Virus record (IMG/VR): IMGVR_UViG_3300037119_003663 | Coordinates: 1 to 25,668 of that record | DNA length: 25,668 nucleotides | Reading direction: 5' to 3' (one strand) | From: a virus | Part shown: piece by piece, positions 459 to 9,975 of the stretch | Layout: each line of letters opens with the position of its first letter | Numbering within the stretch: the stretch's first letter is position 1 | The notes under the pieces: model-generated | Database searches by the model: none | What the model was told of the DNA's origin: nothing | What the model saw: only the letters and a program-made list of their open reading frames with translations | Translations under genes and position numbers: made by a program

Positions 459-1202
459 TCAATCGGCGGCGTCGGCCAGCTTGGGTTTGCCGATCCTGCT
501 GAACAGGTCGAGCGGGCTGGTGGCGGGGAGGAGTTCGACGTTTGTGACGGTGAACGTACCATGCCCTTGTGACCTCAAAGCACCTAGCCCCTCGCGCTGC
601 GCCGTCTCCAGGATACGATCCCACACGTCGAGGGTGATCGCGTCCTCAAGCGACATGACGGTGAAACTCAGCACCGGGCGCTCGCAAAATTCGACGTAGG
701 TCAGCGTGCTGCGCGGGCCTTGCGGGCCGGTGACGTGGCCGATGAACGACGCCACCCCGTCCGGTTCCTGCCGCCCGAGGGGGATCCGATCTTCCTCGCA
801 AAATACTCTCTCCGCCAAGAACGAACGCGGGGCCTTGCGCGTGACGCCCCACTTGGCGATGGCATATGGATACAAAATTGACGTCGTTTCCTTGAGCAGC
901 GCCTTGACTTGCCGCCCCTCGATGAACAGCCCGTGCTCGTCGCGGAGGAAGCCATTCGTCGACTTGTCCCCCACGGTGGAGTGGATGGCCTGCTCGATCT
1001 CCGCCTCGGTGGCCTGGGCGGGGACCTCGTGCCCGAGGTTGCGCAGGGTGGTGGCGACCATGTCGCGGAGTTGGTCGCCCTGGTCGAGGCCCATGCGCGC
1101 CTTGAGCCAGCCCTCGATGACCTTGGGGTCTTTCGGGACGCCGCCCATGAGGCGATTGTCGATCCGGATGGTGACGCGGTAGCGCGTCCAGAGGTCGGCC
1201 AT
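459..1202 (-). CDS. Conserved phage protein with RAMP-like glycine loop (function unknown)
   Basis: This 247-residue protein is the last gene of the operon. I recognise the type from actinobacterial and related genomes (an N-terminal RYRVTIR strand, GGVPKDP, GFLRDEHGLFIEGRQVKALLKE-like centre, IGHVTGPQGPRSTLTY) but know no established function. The C-terminus, residues 205-219, contains GLGALRSQGHGTF, which resembles the glycine-rich loop of Cas6/Cas7-type RAMP folds (GLGxxRxxGxG). The N-terminal beta strand followed by a helix would also suit a ferredoxin-like fold. The fold assignment is inference from a short motif; no Cas gene or CRISPR repeat is nearby. The ATG at 1202 follows a GGAGAGCAAGGAG-like purine stretch. 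It ends 9 bases before the terminator hairpin. Confidence 0.75.
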   Translation of the reverse strand: MADLWTRYRVTIRIDNRLMGGVPKDPKVIEGWLKARMGLDQGDQLRDMVATTLRNLGHEVPAQATEAEIEQAIHSTVGDKSTNGFLRDEHGLFIEGRQVKALLKETTSILYPYAIAKWGVTRKAPRSFLAERVFCEEDRIPLGRQEPDGVASFIGHVTGPQGPRSTLTYVEFCERPVLSFTVMSLEDAITLDVWDRILETAQREGLGALRSQGHGTFTVTNVELLPATSPLDLFSRIGKPKLADAAD

Positions 1203-2039: not shown

Positions 2040-2416
2040 CAGCGCAAGACTCCTTCGATCGCGTCCCAGTCGGCGGGATACCAGCAATAGACTTCCACGC
2101 GGGGGACGGCGCGCAGCGCGGCCAGCCACCGCTCCTGATCGGCGCTGAGTCTGCCGGCCCCGACTTTCAACTCCGCGTAGATCAGCCTGGAAGCGCGGCA
2201 GAGGCAGAGGTCGGGATAGCCGGGCGGCGACTTGCGGGAGTCGAACGTGTGGTACACCAGGAACCCCCGGAGTTCGGCATAGCGGATCACGGAGGCCATG
2301 AATGCTTTTTCCGTGATCCCTCGCGTCGGTGTACGTACCCCTGAGACGCGCTGAGCGGGTTTCTGCGGGGCGTTGGGGGTGGGGCCTGTCTCATTTCGCA
2401 TTGCGGTGCCTTTCAC
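2039..2416 (-). CDS. VRR-NUC domain nuclease
   Basis: A 125-residue protein of the virus-type replication-repair nuclease family, a PD-(D/E)XK fold. The catalytic elements are visible: GYPDL with D69, then AELK with E82 and K84, and the usual C-terminal segment VEVYCWYPADWDAIEGVL. Family members are structure-selective DNases used in phage replication or recombination intermediates. The GTG start at 2416 overlaps the upstream methyltransferase stop (GTGA); an ATG at 2401 is an alternative start that would remove five residues. The length is typical of stand-alone phage VRR-NUC proteins. Confidence 0.88.
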   Translation of the reverse strand: MKGTAMRNETGPTPNAPQKPAQRVSGVRTPTRGITEKAFMASVIRYAELRGFLVYHTFDSRKSPPGYPDLCLCRASRLIYAELKVGAGRLSADQERWLAALRAVPRVEVYCWYPADWDAIEGVLR

Positions 2417-3753
2417 AGCCCTGGCAAGCGTCCCACCGGGAGCGCGGCGAGCCGGTCCCGCGTCCAGCCCACGGCCCGCTCATCCAGGTCGAAGCCGATC
2501 CAGCGGCGGCCCTCCTGGGCGGCGACGAAGGCGGTGGTACCGCTGCCGACGAAGGGATCGAGGACCACCTGCGGGCGGGTCGGCGTGCCGGGCGGGCAGG
2601 AGCAGCGGGGAGCCCAGCCGGTCGTCGTGGCGGGCAGTGCCGCCAGGGTGTGCGACACGCCGGGCCGGTGGACCTGCTGGCCGTTGCTCCCGGCGTGGGT
2701 GTTACGGACGCCCGCCGCCCCCCGCTCCGTCACCCGCCCCCACGCCGTGCCGCACGCGGCGCACTCGCCCGCCTCGCTCGTCCCCGCCAGCACGCACGGG
2801 CGGATCAGGGCCCGGGGGTAGGTGGCGAAGTGGTCGATACTCGTGGGCGCGCTGGGGACGGACCAGACGGTGCGGCGGTTGCGCTTCCCGCCGTGCCCAC
2901 CCAGATCGTGCAGCCCCGGTGCCTGGGAAGCGTTGTGGCCGTTGAGCGCCGAACCGCTCCCCGCCCCGGCCGCTGCCCGCACGGCCCACGGCACCGTCCG
3001 CATCTCGCGGGAGACATCCTCAGCGATCGCCGTCGCGTCGAAGTAGTAGGCCGGCCGCTTGCTGAGCAGGAACAGATATTCGTGCGAACGCGTCGGCCGG
3101 TCGGTGACGCTCTCGGGCATGGGATTGGGTTTGTGCCAGATAATATCGCTCCTGAGGATCCACCCGTCGTCCACGAGCGCGAGCGCCACGCGCCAGGGCA
3201 TGCCAAGGAGGCATTTCTCGGGATATCCCGGCGTGCCCCGACCTCGACTCTCCGGTTCAGGCTTCCCGTGAAGATTCTCCCGACCATGCACGAGTTGTCC
3301 CGGTCCCATCTGCGTGCGGAAGTTGTTGTACGAGTCGCCCAAATTTACCCAAATTGTGCCGTCGTCTTTCAGGGCGGGCCTGAGCGCGGCGAACACCGCG
3401 ACGAGGTTGGCGACGTACGCGGCGGGCGTGGCCTCCAGGCCGAGTTGGCGATCGACGCGCGTCGCGCCGCAGCGGGCGCAGGTGGCGGCGTAGGGCGTGC
3501 GGAGGTCGCCCTGCTTGTCGGTGCCGGGCGGCGTGCCGAAGTAGCGTTCGTTGAATCCGGCCTGCGTGCGCTTCGGCGGCCCCTGGTGGTCGCACGCCGC
3601 GTCCCCGCCCGCCCAGGTGCCCGTCCCGTAGTCGCGCAGGGCGTAGTAGGGCGGGCTGGTGATAATCGTCTGCACGCTGCCCGGCTCCAGCCGCCCCGCC
3701 AGTTCGCGCGCGTCGCCGGTATGGACGCGGCCCGGCGCCAGATAGTCGCCCAT
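2413..3753 (-). CDS. DNA methyltransferase, beta class (N4-cytosine or N6-adenine)
   Basis: A 446-residue S-adenosylmethionine-dependent amino-methyltransferase. Motif IV TSPPYY (residues 32-37) precedes the AdoMet-binding motif DPFVGSGTT (about 399-407), the order that defines the beta class. TSPPY is common in N4-cytosine enzymes but occurs in N6-adenine ones, so base specificity is not settled. Two CxxC pairs (CARCG, CAACG) in the variable region suggest zinc or structural sites in the target recognition area. I chose the ATG at 3753 because GGGAGGGGGC lies directly upstream; an earlier ATG at 3795 overlaps the previous stop (ATGA) and would add 14 residues. No restriction enzyme partner is obvious, so protection of phage DNA is the likely role. 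Confidence 0.9.
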   Translation of the reverse strand: MGDYLAPGRVHTGDARELAGRLEPGSVQTIITSPPYYALRDYGTGTWAGGDAACDHQGPPKRTQAGFNERYFGTPPGTDKQGDLRTPYAATCARCGATRVDRQLGLEATPAAYVANLVAVFAALRPALKDDGTIWVNLGDSYNNFRTQMGPGQLVHGRENLHGKPEPESRGRGTPGYPEKCLLGMPWRVALALVDDGWILRSDIIWHKPNPMPESVTDRPTRSHEYLFLLSKRPAYYFDATAIAEDVSREMRTVPWAVRAAAGAGSGSALNGHNASQAPGLHDLGGHGGKRNRRTVWSVPSAPTSIDHFATYPRALIRPCVLAGTSEAGECAACGTAWGRVTERGAAGVRNTHAGSNGQQVHRPGVSHTLAALPATTTGWAPRCSCPPGTPTRPQVVLDPFVGSGTTAFVAAQEGRRWIGFDLDERAVGWTRDRLAALPVGRLPGL

Positions 3754-3791
3754 GCCCCCTCCCCTCACGTCGCCGCCCCGCGCCGGGACGC

Positions 3792-4319
3792 TCATGCGCC
3801 CGCCCCGATCTGCCGCGCCGAGGGCAGCAGCCCCGCCGACTCGGCGGCCTTCGTCGTGCCGCGCCGCGCGTCGTACTCCGCGACGAAGCGCCGCCGGTAC
3901 CGCTCGCGCTCGAAGTCGGATTCGAGGGTGGCGAGCGTGTGAACGGCGGCGGTGTCGATCCCCAGGTGGTGCCGGACAACGTCCCGCGCGAGTTCGTCGG
4001 GCCAGTCGTGGGCCTTCGTGACGCCGAAGGAGTAGCGCGACAGGACGCGGGAGGAGAGCGCGGCCCAGGCCTGCTCCCCGGAGACGATCGCCCCGGCCGC
4101 CTGCTCCGCCTCGGCGGCGAAGCGCAGCAGGACGGCGATCGGCGGCAGGACGAAGGGGCGATCCCACTCCCGGAGCGCGCGGGCGCAGGCGACGGCGAAC
4201 TGCTCGGGTGGCAAGTCGTGCAGGTTCTCCCAATACACCTCAGCCTGCGCCGGGTTCGTTTCGACGGAGAAGGCTAAAATGAGCTTCGAGAGGTTGAGGT
4301 TGAATGTCTGCCGGTCCAT
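3792..4319 (-). CDS. Putative helicase loader / replisome protein (G39P-like)
   Basis: A 175-residue protein starting at 4319, overlapping the 3' end of the winged-helix replication gene by 80 bases. The N-terminal half (residues 1-75) has the pattern of phage helicase loaders of the G39P type: YWENLHDLPPEQFAVACARALREWDRPFVLPPIAVLLRFA, where short helices around a conserved W/E and a proline-rich PPIA segment recur. The C-terminal part is charged and helical. Position directly after the initiator gene, as in lambda O-P or SPP1 38-39, supports a role in loading the host DnaB helicase. The assignment rests on pattern and position and is moderate. Confidence 0.65.
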   Translation of the reverse strand: MDRQTFNLNLSKLILAFSVETNPAQAEVYWENLHDLPPEQFAVACARALREWDRPFVLPPIAVLLRFAAEAEQAAGAIVSGEQAWAALSSRVLSRYSFGVTKAHDWPDELARDVVRHHLGIDTAAVHTLATLESDFERERYRRRFVAEYDARRGTTKAAESAGLLPSARQIGAGA

Positions 4320-5079: not shown

Positions 5080-5636
5080 GGCCGATCCCCCGCCGCCCGC
5101 ACCTCGTCCAGGCTCGCGTAGCGGCACAGCGCGTCGTGCGCCCAATACACCATGCCGTGCCGCCCCCATTCCGGGCTGCGGTGATTCTCCGCGTTGCACA
5201 GGCGGCGGATATCCCCGCCGAACAGGCCGGTCGGGCACGGCCACGGTTCCAGCGGGCGCCGATCGGCCGCGCTGTCCCTGGTGTGCAGGAACAGCAGGTA
5301 CACCGGGTGCGGCCAGCCGGCGGCGATCGCCAGGTACTGGTAGTAGTGGTGCACATCGATCCCCGTCGTCCACCGCCCGGTCTTCCGGTGCCAGGAGAAC
5401 ACGCCCTTGTGCTTCGCCTCGATCCAGAAGACGCGCCCGCCCTTGAGGCCGAGCATGTCCGGCGCGACGATCTCCCGGCGCGGCGCGAGGAGGCGCGGCC
5501 CCTTGCCGGTGTCGATCTCCGTCTCGTAGACGGGCAGGACGGCGCAGCCGCGCGCCTCGCGCAACCAGCGCGCGATCGCCGACTCGCCCACCCGGCCCCG
5601 CGCCAGGGTGGCGGCGAACGTCTCAGCGCGCGCCAT
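5076..5636 (-). CDS. PD-(D/E)XK family nuclease
   Basis: A 186-residue protein with the catalytic signature of the PD-(D/E)XK superfamily: GRVGESAIARWL with E18, APDML with D60, then FWIEAKHK with E73 and K75, and a following aromatic segment HHYYQYLAIAAGW. Such phage proteins often act as Holliday-junction or structure-specific nucleases, or as Cas4-like exonucleases; no iron-sulphur cysteine set is seen, so Cas4 is disfavoured. The ATG at 5636 overlaps the end of the adenine methyltransferase by 14 bases, and its stop overlaps the initiator start. The context suggests processing of replication or recombination intermediates; substrate unknown. Confidence 0.8.
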   Translation of the reverse strand: MARAETFAATLARGRVGESAIARWLREARGCAVLPVYETEIDTGKGPRLLAPRREIVAPDMLGLKGGRVFWIEAKHKGVFSWHRKTGRWTTGIDVHHYYQYLAIAAGWPHPVYLLFLHTRDSAADRRPLEPWPCPTGLFGGDIRRLCNAENHRSPEWGRHGMVYWAHDALCRYASLDEVRAAGDRP

Positions 5637-6324
5637 CCCACACCTCGCGCGTCGCCAGCACCGCCCCGAACCGCCCGAAGATCGCCGCGAACCGATCGAT
5701 CGCCGGGCCGAAGTAGACGATCGCGTTGGAGTGCGTCGGCTGCCCGGCCTCGGTCTCCTCGTTGTAGAACCTGATCCGGTTGTCCGGGAAGCAGATCGGG
5801 TAGCGCTTCAGCGGCGCGAACCACTGATTGCCGGTGACGGCATTGACGAGCAGCAGCGCCTCGGTCACGTCGCCGGCCGCGTGCCGTTCGATCAGCGCGC
5901 GGCTCCAGCGCGCCTGGTTGCTCTCGCCGTCGCGCAGGCCGTAGGGCGGGTTGAGCCACACCCGCCCCGCCCACGGCCGCGCCAGCCCGTCGTCATCCTC
6001 GGTGAAGAAGCGGGCGGCGCGGACGATCCGGTTGGCGAATTCCTCGCTGGCAGGATCGAGATCGATCCCGCCCATGAGTTCGTGCGCGGCGTCGAGGAAG
6101 GGGGCCGGCGTGAACCAGCGATCGTTATCGGACTGGTTGATCAGCTGGTGGTTCTCAAGCGGCTGCGCGTAGGGATCGCGCTCCTGGCGCACCGCCAGGC
6201 GCAGCGTTTGCCTCGTCCAGCCCTCGGCGATTGCCCGGTCGAGCAGGCGGTCCTGTTCCCCGTCATCGAGCGCGGCCACCTCGGCGTGGAACGAGAAGCC
6301 GAGTGTGTTCCGCCGGCGGAACAA
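5623..6324 (-). CDS. Phage N6-adenine DNA methyltransferase (Dam-like, PF05869 type), probably N-terminally displaced
   Basis: The catalytic domain carries the phage adenine methyltransferase pattern: DRWFTPAPFLDAAHELMGGIDLDPAS (residues about 68-93), NRIVRAARFFTEDDDGLARPW, and the motif IV tetrad NPPY at 125-128. The first 45 residues (RRRNTLGFSFHAEVAALDDGEQDRLLDRA) are the tail end of a longer N-terminal domain usual in this protein type. The frame remains open upstream as AAKYVCGKFALF but meets a stop at 6412-6414, and the only start near this point is a TTG at 6324 without a clear ribosome site. The missing beginning appears in a different frame at 6263-6484. The enzyme may be expressed by translational coupling, or the gene may be frameshifted or partly deleted. 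Confidence 0.82.
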   Translation of the reverse strand: MFRRRNTLGFSFHAEVAALDDGEQDRLLDRAIAEGWTRQTLRLAVRQERDPYAQPLENHQLINQSDNDRWFTPAPFLDAAHELMGGIDLDPASEEFANRIVRAARFFTEDDDGLARPWAGRVWLNPPYGLRDGESNQARWSRALIERHAAGDVTEALLLVNAVTGNQWFAPLKRYPICFPDNRIRFYNEETEAGQPTHSNAIVYFGPAIDRFAAIFGRFGAVLATREVWDGAR

Positions 6325-6734: not shown

Positions 6735-7331
6735 CTAGCCCGCCACCCCGGCGGGGGCCGCCTCCTGGAGCCGCGTCCGGTGCCAGGTGAGCGCCGCGCG
6801 CCGCACCGCCGCGTCCAGGCCCGAGTCCGCCACGCGATCGGAGCGGTCGGCCAGATCGGCCAGGGTCGTCGCGCCGAGGTAGTAGGCGTGCAGCGCGGCT
6901 TTGCGCGCGTCGGCCGGCGCGTCGGGGTCGTGGATCGCGTCGAGCGGCGGCGGGTAGGTGCGCCTCGGCGGCGCGGGTGGGGTGTCCTCGCCCCGCGCCA
7001 CCTTCGCCATCTCCTCCCGGCTCGGCCGCTGCTTCGACAGGCTCATGCCCATGTTGGCGAGGGCGCGCCCTATGGCCGATGTCTCGCCGTTCTCCCACCA
7101 ACTCGTCCTGTTCGCCCCGGCCGGCCCGCGCTCCTCCTGCGCGATCCCGGTGGCGAGGATGCGATCGTCCACATACACGGTTGCCCGAATCGCCACGCTG
7201 CTCCCGTCGTCGGCCACCCAGACGATCTCGGTCTGGATGCTCCCGATCGGGGCCGGGTACATGGCCCAGAAGCGATCGATCCGCTCGTCCACGGTGACAT
7301 ACTCCGCGAGGTTGAAGCCGCGCCCGCTCAT
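6735..7331 (-). CDS. Erf/Rad52-like single-strand annealing protein family (candidate)
   Basis: A 198-residue protein. Residues 14-100 contain ERIDRFWAMYPAPIGSIQTEIV, a beta-rich stretch with TVYVDDRILATGIAQEE, and ENGETSAIGRALANMGMSL (80-98). The last motif, E(N/T)xETSAIGRALA, is characteristic of a phage family whose members are usually linked to Erf/Rad52-type recombination or to single-strand DNA binding. The rest is a proline-rich linker (about 110-130) and a helical C-terminus. The ATG at 7331 overlaps the upstream zinc-finger gene (ATGA). Association with nucleases and replication genes agrees with recombination, but the biochemical role is inferred from the family pattern only. Confidence 0.68.
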   Translation of the reverse strand: MSGRGFNLAEYVTVDERIDRFWAMYPAPIGSIQTEIVWVADDGSSVAIRATVYVDDRILATGIAQEERGPAGANRTSWWENGETSAIGRALANMGMSLSKQRPSREEMAKVARGEDTPPAPPRRTYPPPLDAIHDPDAPADARKAALHAYYLGATTLADLADRSDRVADSGLDAAVRRAALTWHRTRLQEAAPAGVAG

Positions 7332-7744
7332 GCCGCCACACCCCTCCCCGCCGGGAACCGCGCGAACGCCTCGCCGCCCGGCGCCCAGGTCGGCGGCGAG
7401 CAGGCCGGGTGCCGCGCCAGCCAGTCGGCGGCGAGGTACTCGCTCACCGTGAGGACATGGCGGATATGGTCCCGCGTGATCCACGGGTTGACGGCGGGCT
7501 GGCCGGGGAGAATCCCCAACATTGCGGGCGAGATATAGCCGCGCGGTGGACGGAAGTCCTGCCAGCCCGCGCCGCCGTTCGTCAGGCGCGGGAAGTCCGC
7601 GAGGTCGCCCCGGTTGTTCTTGCGGTGGTAGCAGGTGTAGCAGAGTCCGCGCGGCCGGGCGGGCTTGGCCCGGCCGGGGATCGTGTAGCCCGCCGTGGTG
7701 CCGCAGGAAAGGCAGGCCGCGGCCTCGGTCGTCTGTCCGTTCAT
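7328..7744 (-). CDS. Zinc-finger protein, 138 aa, function unknown
   Basis: Two CxxC pairs, C11-x2-C14 and C35-x2-C38 (CLSCGTTAGYTIP then GLCYTCYHR), form a likely zinc ribbon at the N-terminus, of the kind found in phage DNA-binding or HNH-related proteins; no HNH catalytic residues follow. The remainder (RGYISPAMLGILPGQ, ITRDHIRHVLTVSEYLAADWL) looks like a compact helical domain. The start at 7744 follows AGGAG at a suitable distance, while the upstream gene ends at 7756. The stop overlaps the start of the Erf/Rad52-like gene, so the two are probably co-translated. Confidence 0.7.
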   Translation of the reverse strand: MNGQTTEAAACLSCGTTAGYTIPGRAKPARPRGLCYTCYHRKNNRGDLADFPRLTNGGAGWQDFRPPRGYISPAMLGILPGQPAVNPWITRDHIRHVLTVSEYLAADWLARHPACSPPTWAPGGEAFARFPAGRGVAA

Positions 7745-7755
7745 GGTGTACGCTC

Positions 7756-8079
7756 CTAACTGCAATCGTCGCCGTAGACGCGCGACAACACGTCAACCAT
7801 CCGCTCCAACTTCGTCCGGGGTTTCCCCGCCCTGGCCTGCGCTAACGCGGCCCGCAGTTGGCGCGTGCGCCCCTCCTCCGCGAGCAGCCGCGCCCTGAGC
7901 CAGACGTTCTCGGCCAGCAACTCGCCCACCTGCGCGGACAGGTCGTGCGAGGCGTGGATCGCGGCGTCCAGAAGCCCTTCGACCGCCAGGCAATCGTGCG
8001 AGCCGACCGCCTCCAGCCAGGGGACCAATGCGGCCTGCGCGGCGACCTTGCCCATGTCCCTGGAGTAGTCGTGTGTCAT
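7756..8079 (-). CDS. Small helical/coiled-coil protein, 107 aa
   Basis: No family recognised. The start ATG at 8079 overlaps the dcm stop (ATGA). Residues about 10-95 are predicted almost entirely helical, with leucine/alanine heptad character in LSAQVGELLAENVWLRARLLAEEGRTRQLRAALAQ, suggesting a coiled coil and oligomerisation. The C-terminus is basic (GKPRTKLERMVDVLSRVYGDD). Its coupling to the cytosine methyltransferase suggests joint expression; function unknown. Confidence 0.68.
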   Translation of the reverse strand: MTHDYSRDMGKVAAQAALVPWLEAVGSHDCLAVEGLLDAAIHASHDLSAQVGELLAENVWLRARLLAEEGRTRQLRAALAQARAGKPRTKLERMVDVLSRVYGDDCS

Positions 8080-9005
8080 GATGCCGCCTCCACGATCCGC
8101 CGCCCCAACCATTCCGCAATTTGAGGAACTACGGCGTTGCCGAGTCCTCTAAGTCGGTCCACCCGAGCGGGAACCCCATCAGCCACTCGACCCACGTCGG
8201 GTTCAGTTGCCCACTGGCCTTGCCCCGCGCGGCAACTTCGTTCAAAGGTCGCGAGTTCTTCGCGTGCGTCTCCTCCGAAGCATGGCCCGACCGCCAGGGA
8301 CTGGCGGTCGGGGTCGGCCACCGTTCCTGCTCGATCACCGCCACGAGCAGGGGTGTCCCGCCCGGTGAGGCGTTCGCCCCGCGCTTGACTTTGGCGTAGG
8401 TGTGGCGATCCCGCGCGGTCGGCGTGGGCCACAGCGCCACCGCCCACCCGAGTTTGTTCGGCTTCATCCTGCCGTCCCCGCTCGCGGTCAGCGTTGTGTC
8501 GTTCGCCGCCTTGGACGCACCGGGCGTGGGCCACAATGAAAACCCGGTCACGGATGTGCGGGGCACCAACGGCGGCAGCGGGAATGCAGTCCCATTCCGC
8601 GTCATACCCGCTCGCGGCCAGGTCGCCGAGTACGGTGCCCGCTCCCCGCCCAAGGAGTGCTGCCACGTTCTCCACGAGGACGAAGTGGGGTCGTAGGACG
8701 CGCACGAGCCGGATGTACTCGGACCACAGGCCCGACCGCTCCCCGCCGATCCCGGCGCGCTTCCCGGCGTCGCTGATGTCCTGGCAGGGGAAGCCGCCGC
8801 AGATGAGATCGACTCGTTCGAGTTCGCCACCCGTCACCTCCCGGATATCCCCGAACTTCGGCACGTCGGGCCAGTGCTTCGCCAGCACGCGGCGGCAGTA
8901 CTCGTCTATCTCCACCTGCCAGCGGCAGGCCATGCCCGCCCGTTCCAGCCCGAGATCGAGGCCCCCGATCCCCGCGAACAGGGAGCCGAACGTGAGCGCG
9001 CCCAT
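8076..9005 (-). CDS. dcm: DNA (cytosine-5)-methyltransferase
   Basis: A 309-residue C5-cytosine methyltransferase. Motif I FGSLFAGIGGLDLGLERAG (6-24) binds AdoMet; motif IV GGFPCQDIS has catalytic C74; motif VI is VENV (111-114); motif VIII is IRDRVFIVAHA (151-161); motif X is GNAVVPQIAEWLGRRI (289-304). The target-recognition region (about 162-265) is hydrophilic with VAHADR/VADPDR repeats. The start follows GGAGGTGAGGC. There is no cognate restriction gene, so the enzyme is probably an orphan that protects phage DNA. Most of its length is also open in a second frame on the same strand with recognisable protein features (separate entry), which probably explains the odd composition of the recognition region. 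Confidence 0.93.
   Translation of the reverse strand: MGALTFGSLFAGIGGLDLGLERAGMACRWQVEIDEYCRRVLAKHWPDVPKFGDIREVTGGELERVDLICGGFPCQDISDAGKRAGIGGERSGLWSEYIRLVRVLRPHFVLVENVAALLGRGAGTVLGDLAASGYDAEWDCIPAAAVGAPHIRDRVFIVAHARCVQGGERHNADRERGRQDEAEQTRVGGGAVAHADRAGSPHLRQSQARGERLTGRDTPARGGDRAGTVADPDRQSLAVGPCFGGDAREELATFERSCRAGQGQWATEPDVGRVADGVPARVDRLRGLGNAVVPQIAEWLGRRIVEAAS
8129..8830 (-). CDS. Overprinted protein embedded in dcm (WPTPTA-repeat family)
   Basis: Entirely inside the methyltransferase gene, on the same strand but in another frame, a 233-residue frame from GTG 8830 shows a protein pattern I recognise from phage and bacterial proteins near cytosine methyltransferases: SSWRTWQHSL, YSATWPRAGMTRNGTAF, LVPRTS, repeated LWPTPTARD / RWPTPTAS, HAKNSRPLNE and a conserved end LNPTWVEWLMGFPLGWT. 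The VADPDR-type repeats of Dcm are the same DNA read as WPTPTA here, and GGFPCQDIS is read as SPARTS. Long open length, plus several separate conserved motifs, argue against chance, but expression is unproven; no strong ribosome site is visible at 8830. It might act as an accessory or alternative target-recognition protein; function unknown. Confidence 0.55.
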   Translation of the reverse strand: MANSNESISSAAASPARTSATPGSAPGSAGSGRACGPSTSGSCASYDPTSSSWRTWQHSLGGERAPYSATWPRAGMTRNGTAFPLPPLVPRTSVTGFSLWPTPGASKAANDTTLTASGDGRMKPNKLGWAVALWPTPTARDRHTYAKVKRGANASPGGTPLLVAVIEQERWPTPTASPWRSGHASEETHAKNSRPLNEVAARGKASGQLNPTWVEWLMGFPLGWTDLEDSATP

Positions 9006-9146: not shown

Positions 9147-9535
9147 GGTGTCACCTCCCCGAGCAGCCGCCCGCAGGCGATCACCGCCGCCCTGTCTTCG
9201 ATCGAGTCGTCGCCCATGTCGATCGCGTACTGCCGCGTGGCGCGCACCTCGCGCAGCATGGACGGCGAGTACCGCCCCAGCGTCCGCTCCCACCAGCGCA
9301 CGCGGGCGAACAGGGCGGCAACGTCGATGTGGGAGCAGGTGCCGCGATACGTGTAGGCCGGGCACTGGCAGCGCCATGCGGCGTCGCCGTGCCCCTCAAC
9401 GTCGTGGCAGGTGGTGTAGCGAAGACCTTCGATTCGCTTGCTGGCGACGGTGTATACCTGACAACCTCTGGTGGATCGGTCGGGGTCATACTCGACGCGC
9501 GTGAGGTCGGGGAGAGTCGTGGGTGCGGTGGTCAT
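9143..9535 (-). CDS. SWIM-type zinc-finger protein
   Basis: A 130-residue protein with the SWIM signature CxCx(n)CxH: C56-Q-C58, then C67-S-H69 (CQCPAYTYRGTCSHI). SWIM domains bind zinc and contact DNA or proteins, and in phages occur as small accessory proteins of unknown job. Upstream residues 25-50 contribute two more cysteines (GCQVYTVASKRI, TTCHD). The C-terminus is helical (VRWWERTLGRYSPSMLREVRATRQYAID). ATG 9535 overlaps the preceding HNH stop (ATGA). Confidence 0.8.
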   Translation of the reverse strand: MTTAPTTLPDLTRVEYDPDRSTRGCQVYTVASKRIEGLRYTTCHDVEGHGDAAWRCQCPAYTYRGTCSHIDVAALFARVRWWERTLGRYSPSMLREVRATRQYAIDMGDDSIEDRAAVIACGRLLGEVTP

Positions 9536-9975
9536 GATGCACCTCGTTCGTTGCGGCGTCGCGCGTTCGTCTCCCGGCCGCGCCGTCTCCGACATGCCAC
9601 ACACTCCCGCCGACCTTTCGGGGTCATGTGCAGGTTATCTGCGCTGAGCGAGTGCCCGTGATTGCAATGCGTCTTGCGCGCATTGCGTGCGGCGGGCGAG
9701 TGCCCACGGAGCGCATTCTCCCTTTGGGTCGCAACGCGCAGATGATCGGGATTCACACAACGCCGGTTGCCGCAGAGATGGTCGAGCGTCATGCCTGCCG
9801 GTATGGGACCGATCAGGGATTCCCATGCGTAGCGATAGGCTCTGGTTGGCGCGGTGCGGGTGGGGAAGAACGTCCCGTAACCGGTCGGGGTTGCCGCCCC
9901 GGTCCATTCCCAGCAATCGCCCCGCGCGTCAACCTTCTCCCAGAATCGTTCTTCGGCTGGTCGGTGTCTTGGCAT
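9532..9975 (-). CDS. HNH endonuclease (in operon orientation)
   Basis: A 147-residue phage HNH homing-type endonuclease. An N-terminal FWEKVDARGDCWEWTGA strand region and RAYRYAWESLIGPIPAGM precede the catalytic core LDHLCGNRRCVNPDHL (64-79), with D65-H66, C68/C73 and N75/H78 as metal-binding and structural residues, then TQRENALRG and a second zinc site (CNHGH at 104-108 and CVAC at 125-128). Unlike the two plus-strand HNH genes it follows operon direction, overlaps the SWIM gene start and has only a small hairpin (10000-10012) and GAGGAAG site before it. It could be a free-standing homing nuclease that recently entered the operon. Confidence 0.9.
   Translation of the reverse strand: MPRHRPAEERFWEKVDARGDCWEWTGAATPTGYGTFFPTRTAPTRAYRYAWESLIGPIPAGMTLDHLCGNRRCVNPDHLRVATQRENALRGHSPAARNARKTHCNHGHSLSADNLHMTPKGRRECVACRRRRGRETNARRRNERGAS

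Follow-up and report, generated by a model that had tools for sequence, protein, structure and literature searches.

The outer gene and the frame nested within it

The window, by which we mean the whole stretch of DNA analyzed here, corresponds to positions 1 to 25,668 of the virus record IMGVR_UViG_3300037119_003663 (25,668 bases). On its minus strand lies an ATG-initiated gene (8076–9005) encoding the outer C5-methyltransferase chain, hereafter alpha, which comprises 309 residues and was delineated from the ORF and from its matches to PF00145 and M.HhaI. As a first-pass annotation of this DNA had claimed, the ORF list of the window places a second frame of 233 codons (8129–8830, minus strand, GTG start) wholly within the alpha ORF, on the same strand and in frame alpha+1. 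Its 233-residue product, hereafter beta, is recognized by the ORF, by a profile match, and by selection. The inner frame runs from just upstream of alpha motif IV into alpha motif X, which agrees with the span originally proposed for it.

The alignment of alpha with PF00145 covered positions 2–162 of 324 (E 4e-46), that is, only the first half of the profile, and the match with M.HhaI extended over residues 11–170. The catalytic motifs I–VIII are present, and both ENV and the PC of PCQ were invariant in an alignment of 49 alphas. Motif IV, GFPCQDIS (residues 71–78; 8772–8795, minus strand), is located just inside the beta start and carries the GxPCQ pattern that is invariant in the 49 alphas. 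Motif X, GNAVVPQ (residues 289–295; 8121–8141, minus strand), exhibits invariant G289, N290, and V293 in the same set. Motif IX was sought in alpha, with no PF00145 match past position 162 and none of M.HhaI past 170, and the alpha sequence in that region reads EPDVGRVADGVPARVD. Because motif IX was not found in alpha, the protein was classed as one chain of a C5-methyltransferase and not as a whole enzyme; the outer protein is thus an incomplete Dcm whose motif IX sits in the inner frame.

The protein search of both frames, which the first-pass annotation had suggested, assigned alpha to PF00145 and beta to PHROG 1008. Beta residues 10–227 aligned with positions 41–281 of the 329 in the PHROG 1008 profile (E 2.6e-34), and this family was matched by all 51 members of the beta alignment, the window beta among them. 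A search of Pfam and NCBIfam with the window beta gave no match at E up to 1, and the beta profile compared with PDB sequences returned nothing meaningful. The motifs listed for the inner frame at first reading were all found in its translation, namely SSWRTWQ, YSATWPRAGM, the WPTP repeats (WPTPGA, WPTPTAR, and WPTPTAS), and LNPTWVEWLMGFPLGWT. The WPRAG block (8606–8620, minus strand), with W71, P72, R73, and G75 nearly invariant in 51 betas, overprints LAASGYDAE of alpha. The three WPTP repeats are located at residues 100–103 (8522–8533), 134–137 (8420–8431, read from the ORF translation), and 171–174 (8309–8320), all on the minus strand; T102 of the first is invariant in 51 betas, and T173 and P174 of the third are nearly so. 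The third repeat is read as VADPDR in alpha, and translation of both frames agrees with the earlier observation that the WPTPTA repeats and the outer VAHADR/VADPDR strings are the same DNA. Near the end of beta, LNPTWVEWLMGFPLGWT (residues 209–225; 8156–8206, minus strand) overprints alpha EPDVGRVADGVPARVD and shares L.P...E.LMG.P..WT with LTPLECERLMGWPDQWT, which is motif IX in the one-chain enzyme L274. We describe this segment as motif-IX-like, an assignment that is based on the pattern common to L274 and the fused forms described below and that the alignment, entropy, and N/S ratios of the segment support.

Upstream of the beta GTG (8830), the minus strand bears a Shine–Dalgarno-like site, GGAGGTGA (8834–8841), identified by sequence and by enrichment in relatives. 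At least six bases of Shine–Dalgarno sequence preceded a beta-frame start in this part of the gene in 33 of 230 genes against 9.7 expected, whereas the counts stayed below expectation in frame 0, in frame +2, and farther downstream. No strong site of at least six bases was found in the other 197 of the 230 genes, in which initiation must rely on weaker sites or on signals of another kind. In some loci, such as L022, L056, and L060, an in-frame stop directly precedes the Shine–Dalgarno beta start. Modelled alone, beta reached a pLDDT of 60 and a pTM of 0.26 with no confident fold, an outcome that suits a partner-dependent chain, yet counts as no evidence for one.

The ten other window proteins scanned against PHROGs included an HNH endonuclease (9532–9975) and a weak HNH match (7328–7765, E 0.002), and no clear partner restriction nuclease was detected among the ten. 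Hence, the pair probably acts as an orphan methyltransferase that protects the DNA of the phage against restriction by the host. Two more DNA methyltransferases, matching PHROG 67 and PHROG 111, are encoded at 2413–3948 and 5623–6324 (both minus strand) within 6 kb of alpha/beta, and the phage therefore carries three. A 247-residue protein without any PHROG match is encoded at 459–1202 (minus strand).

Conservation of the overlap and selection on both frames

A search of viral contigs with beta retrieved 80 loci at 34–49% identity, and an overlapping alpha homolog in the same +1 arrangement was present in all of them. After the addition of 80 loci found in assemblies of bacteria and archaea from many phyla, and of another 62 viral loci, the same-frame overlap was found in 223 of 223 beta-chosen loci, the window copy included, some contigs being repeated in this set. 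Selection of loci by alpha, using motifs I–VIII only, yielded a +1 beta overlapping alpha in 76 of 80 cases. Of the four exceptions, L266 is truncated where its contig ends, L274 and L296 are ordinary one-chain enzymes that possess a motif IX themselves, and L261 is a natural fusion. Among 299 genomes drawn evenly from the phylum to which the Janthinobacterium locus belongs, 11 carried beta at E <= 1e-10, and all the loci fetched from that draw (L388–L406) had the +1 overlap. When the Janthinobacterium locus served as query in a distant DNA search of E. coli, 2 of 5426 genomes were matched, and the one retrieved contains a broken prophage copy. In the E. coli PCP07014 prophage (L407), stops break alpha and beta at about the same place (~5213–5224), and the gene is marked in its record as a pseudogene with an internal stop. 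In Mycobacterium phage Llama (L387), alpha and beta shift frame at about the same place (~1850–1880), as if a single insertion or deletion had hit both genes at once; its record lists two short methylase genes. The nested arrangement is old and widespread, and genome annotations usually omit the inner gene; both genes are annotated in at least one phage record, that of Paenibacillus phage Bloom (BLOOM_56 and BLOOM_57). The first-pass annotation had expected kin of beta next to phage methyltransferases: relatives do occur in phages, as PHROG 1008 and Bloom illustrate, but in the loci examined they are nested in the methyltransferase, split with it, or fused to it and not separate neighbors.

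Considering the window alone, synonymous shuffling of the outer gene left the inner frame open in 4.9% of cases, with 2.7 stops expected, and at this chance openness of ~5% in DNA of 69% GC the ORF length is by itself weak proof. Across relatives, openness is far beyond what chance would give. Stops were counted there in the 69 usable loci among the 80 chosen only by the N-terminal half of the outer protein (eight without a called motif X, two without a PCQ match, and one duplicate were dropped). An earlier count over 272 loci was excluded because its frames had been picked for being open ORFs in the first place. Between motifs IV and X the +1 frame contained 59 stops against 372 expected and was fully open in 48 of the 69 loci against 1.9 expected, whereas the control frame +2 contained 706 stops across the same loci. 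Frequent stops in homologs, which had been named at the outset as grounds for refutation, are thus not what the relatives exhibit. Additionally, when held-out loci were scored with the beta profile, the real frame surpassed every one of 20 synonymous shuffles in 68 of 70, with means of 151 bits for real and 49 bits for shuffled sequences; the held-out set comprised 70 of 76 loci, each with <70% identity to any profile row, and L300 and L303 were the two that failed.

Selection was examined in 40 disjoint pairs of relatives, which revealed purifying selection on both frames within the overlap. Purifying selection acts on the inner frame when the outer one is taken into account, so that the second proposed ground for refutation, missing conservation in the inner frame, did not materialize either, and the view of a real overprinted gene with frames constraining each other is upheld. 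Region-wise N/S ratios were obtained from 53 pairs for the segments before the overlap, at motifs IV–VIII, in the variable region, at motif IX, and after it. For the inner frame, given alpha-synonymous change, the ratios were 1.5, 0.69, 0.24, 0.03, and 2.0, respectively; for alpha, given inner-synonymous change, they were 0.06, 0.12, 0.68, 0.26, and 0.13. Changes synonymous in both frames numbered 15, 43, 15, 21, and 4 by region, and the single ratios are rough because some cells are small. Between motifs VIII and X, N/S was 0.24 and 0.17 in the inner frame against 0.68 and 0.48 in the outer one, and in the motif IX region the inner frame gave 0.03 and 0.11. Constraint is thus handed over between the frames: the outer frame is constrained at motifs I–VIII and X, and the inner frame between VIII and X. 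No such hand-over was observed in the +2 control frame.

The segment that separates motifs VIII and IX in C5-methyltransferases is the variable target-recognition region, according to PMC3404938. The first-pass annotation had attributed this region to Dcm, whereas the N/S ratios between VIII and X point to the inner frame. Since the inner frame is constrained and the outer one relaxed there, the VADPDR strings of alpha appear to be a by-product of the WPTPTA repeats encoded in the inner frame. Alpha is nevertheless mildly constrained in the variable region (0.68 and 0.48) and may therefore do something there. The third-position entropy of conserved four-fold alpha codons, computed over 230 genes, followed the same course, with means of 1.84 bits before the overlap (seven columns), 1.48 at motifs IV–VIII (18 columns), 0.25 at motif IX (four columns), and 1.77 after it (three columns). 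Conserved alpha codons therefore lose synonymous freedom within the overlap, down to 0.25 bits at motif IX. Beta is protein-coding and conserved; the comparative evidence for this is strong, and the evidence from the window alone is modest.

Fused and split relatives

The natural fusion L261 was used as the query of a further search, which returned 80 loci, 14 of which exhibit the alpha motifs, LPTP repeats, a beta-like motif IX, and motif X in one frame. These 14 are L304–L315, L322, and L370, with L261 itself counted as L304, and for a few of these loci the combined layout is only partly covered by the profile match. The model of L261 (mean pLDDT 76) aligned residues 1–383 with M.HhaI 12–325 (Z 24.2, rmsd 3.1, 245 residues), while its repeat region (231–290) had a pLDDT under 50; the predicted structure of the single chain hence resembles M.HhaI. 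In a third layout, alpha ends after motif VIII and a second ORF has the recognition region, IX, and X (L386, L321, and L325). In Streptomyces phage Samy (L386, 1170–2517), for instance, a short alpha with motifs I–VIII overlaps a longer second ORF, and the two are annotated as two genes. The survey of this layout used two locus sets and left out L001–L223 for motif X.

A tree built from the N-terminal halves of alpha placed the fused forms among the nested and split ones, with bootstrap values that do not settle the branching, and Samy occupied a very long branch. This placement suits a derived origin of the fusions without proving it. All 14 fused forms still keep the N-terminal half of beta in the +1 frame, where it scores higher than any of 20 synonymous shuffles. 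This retained half would either have a function of its own or help the enzyme in trans.

A two-polypeptide enzyme and its known counterparts

Since the C-terminal half of beta occupies the position of target recognition and motif IX across the nested, split, and fused layouts, we consider it highly probable that the locus encodes a two-polypeptide C5-methyltransferase, in which alpha is catalytic and beta, from its own internal start, provides target recognition and motif IX. One C5-cytosine DNA methyltransferase would then be built from two polypeptides encoded by two frames of the same DNA. Alpha would supply the cofactor and catalytic part (motifs I–VIII) together with motif X. Beta would be translated from the internal Shine–Dalgarno site and the GTG just before alpha motif IV, and its C-terminal half would bring motif IX as well as the target-recognition region with its WPTP repeats. 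The two chains would associate into an active enzyme, and the predicted methylation would shield phage DNA from host restriction. The placement of target recognition in beta is an indication drawn from selection and the fusions, in a region whose fold the model does not resolve. The two-subunit model leaves unexplained why the N-terminal half of beta is kept in the +1 frame of the fusions. That half exhibits excess conservation even where recognition and motif IX sit in the alpha frame, which suggests a second function. More tentatively, then, and with more doubt than belief, we entertain an ancient entangled pair spread through many bacterial phyla and phages, with frames that trade constraint and a beta N-terminal half that serves this second function.

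Relatives that combine the parts of alpha and beta in a single chain would also be expected if ribosomes moved from alpha into the +1 frame and an alpha–beta fusion were the active enzyme or part of it. Such a frameshift is unlikely given the Shine–Dalgarno beta-frame starts enriched at the right place, the in-frame stops just before them in some loci, and the conservation of the beta N-terminal half, which would be needless in a product shifted after motif VIII. This same half, conserved in 14 of 14 fusions whose recognition region and motif IX have moved to the alpha frame, could instead be taken to mean that beta is a real protein with a separate role (a regulator, an anti-restriction protein, or a DNA-binding factor) and not a methyltransferase subunit. 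However, motif IX is absent from alpha and present in beta, and the fused and split forms place the beta C-terminal half exactly at the missing position, which renders a separate role very unlikely. A chance ORF in GC-rich DNA, conserved merely through alpha, would agree with the openness probability of ~0.05 in the window alone; it is contradicted by the few stops across relatives, by the lost synonymous freedom and the region-wise purifying selection given alpha, and by the excess over synonymous shuffles in held-out loci, and we rejected it as scarcely credible.

With the two-polypeptide enzyme as the preferred reading, nested, split, and fused forms of one enzyme become available for comparison. 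Many phage proteins annotated as a complete "Dcm" are probably a single subunit whose partner is missing from the annotation, and alpha-only expression tests could therefore fail or mislead. The PHROG 1008 name "DNA methyltransferase" hides that its members are nested small subunits. To our knowledge, established prokaryotic genes rarely show long same-strand overlaps that have stayed fixed in distant relatives. Among the open-access papers examined, we found no description of a nested small-subunit frame in phage C5-methyltransferases, and one may exist elsewhere.

Among known systems, M.AquI (CYCGRG) is a two-polypeptide C5-methyltransferase split behind motif VIII, with motif X in the small chain. 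Samy, L321, and L325 resemble it in being split behind VIII with X in the second ORF, whereas the window has motif X in the large chain, alpha. A second frame read within phage methylase genes is also found in the ShiLan element, an out-of-frame HNH endonuclease, as PMC11855218 describes. That element is an inserted mobile nuclease, whereas beta overprints the methyltransferase core and has no HNH match, and an inserted HNH gene was rejected for beta on this basis.

M.EcoHK31I (YGGCCR) of E. coli is a naturally split C5-methyltransferase of a restriction–modification system. In its description from the 1990s, the small-subunit gene is said to lie inside the large one in another frame, and the window small-chain gene likewise overlaps the large-chain gene in another frame. 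According to PMC3404938, M.EcoHK31I consists of two polypeptides, the larger with motifs I–VIII and X and the smaller with motif IX, and its target-recognition region is predicted in the larger chain. The window alpha and beta exhibit the same division of motifs, a likeness drawn from the description of that enzyme. They differ in that selection and the fusions point to recognition in beta, unlike the large-chain location predicted in that account, and in being a phage gene without a clear partner nuclease. By analogy, the window pair would work like M.EcoHK31I, as a natural two-polypeptide C5-methyltransferase of a kind already known; what seems to be new is the breadth of the arrangement, the hand-over of constraint, the recognition indicated in the small frame, and the range of layouts.
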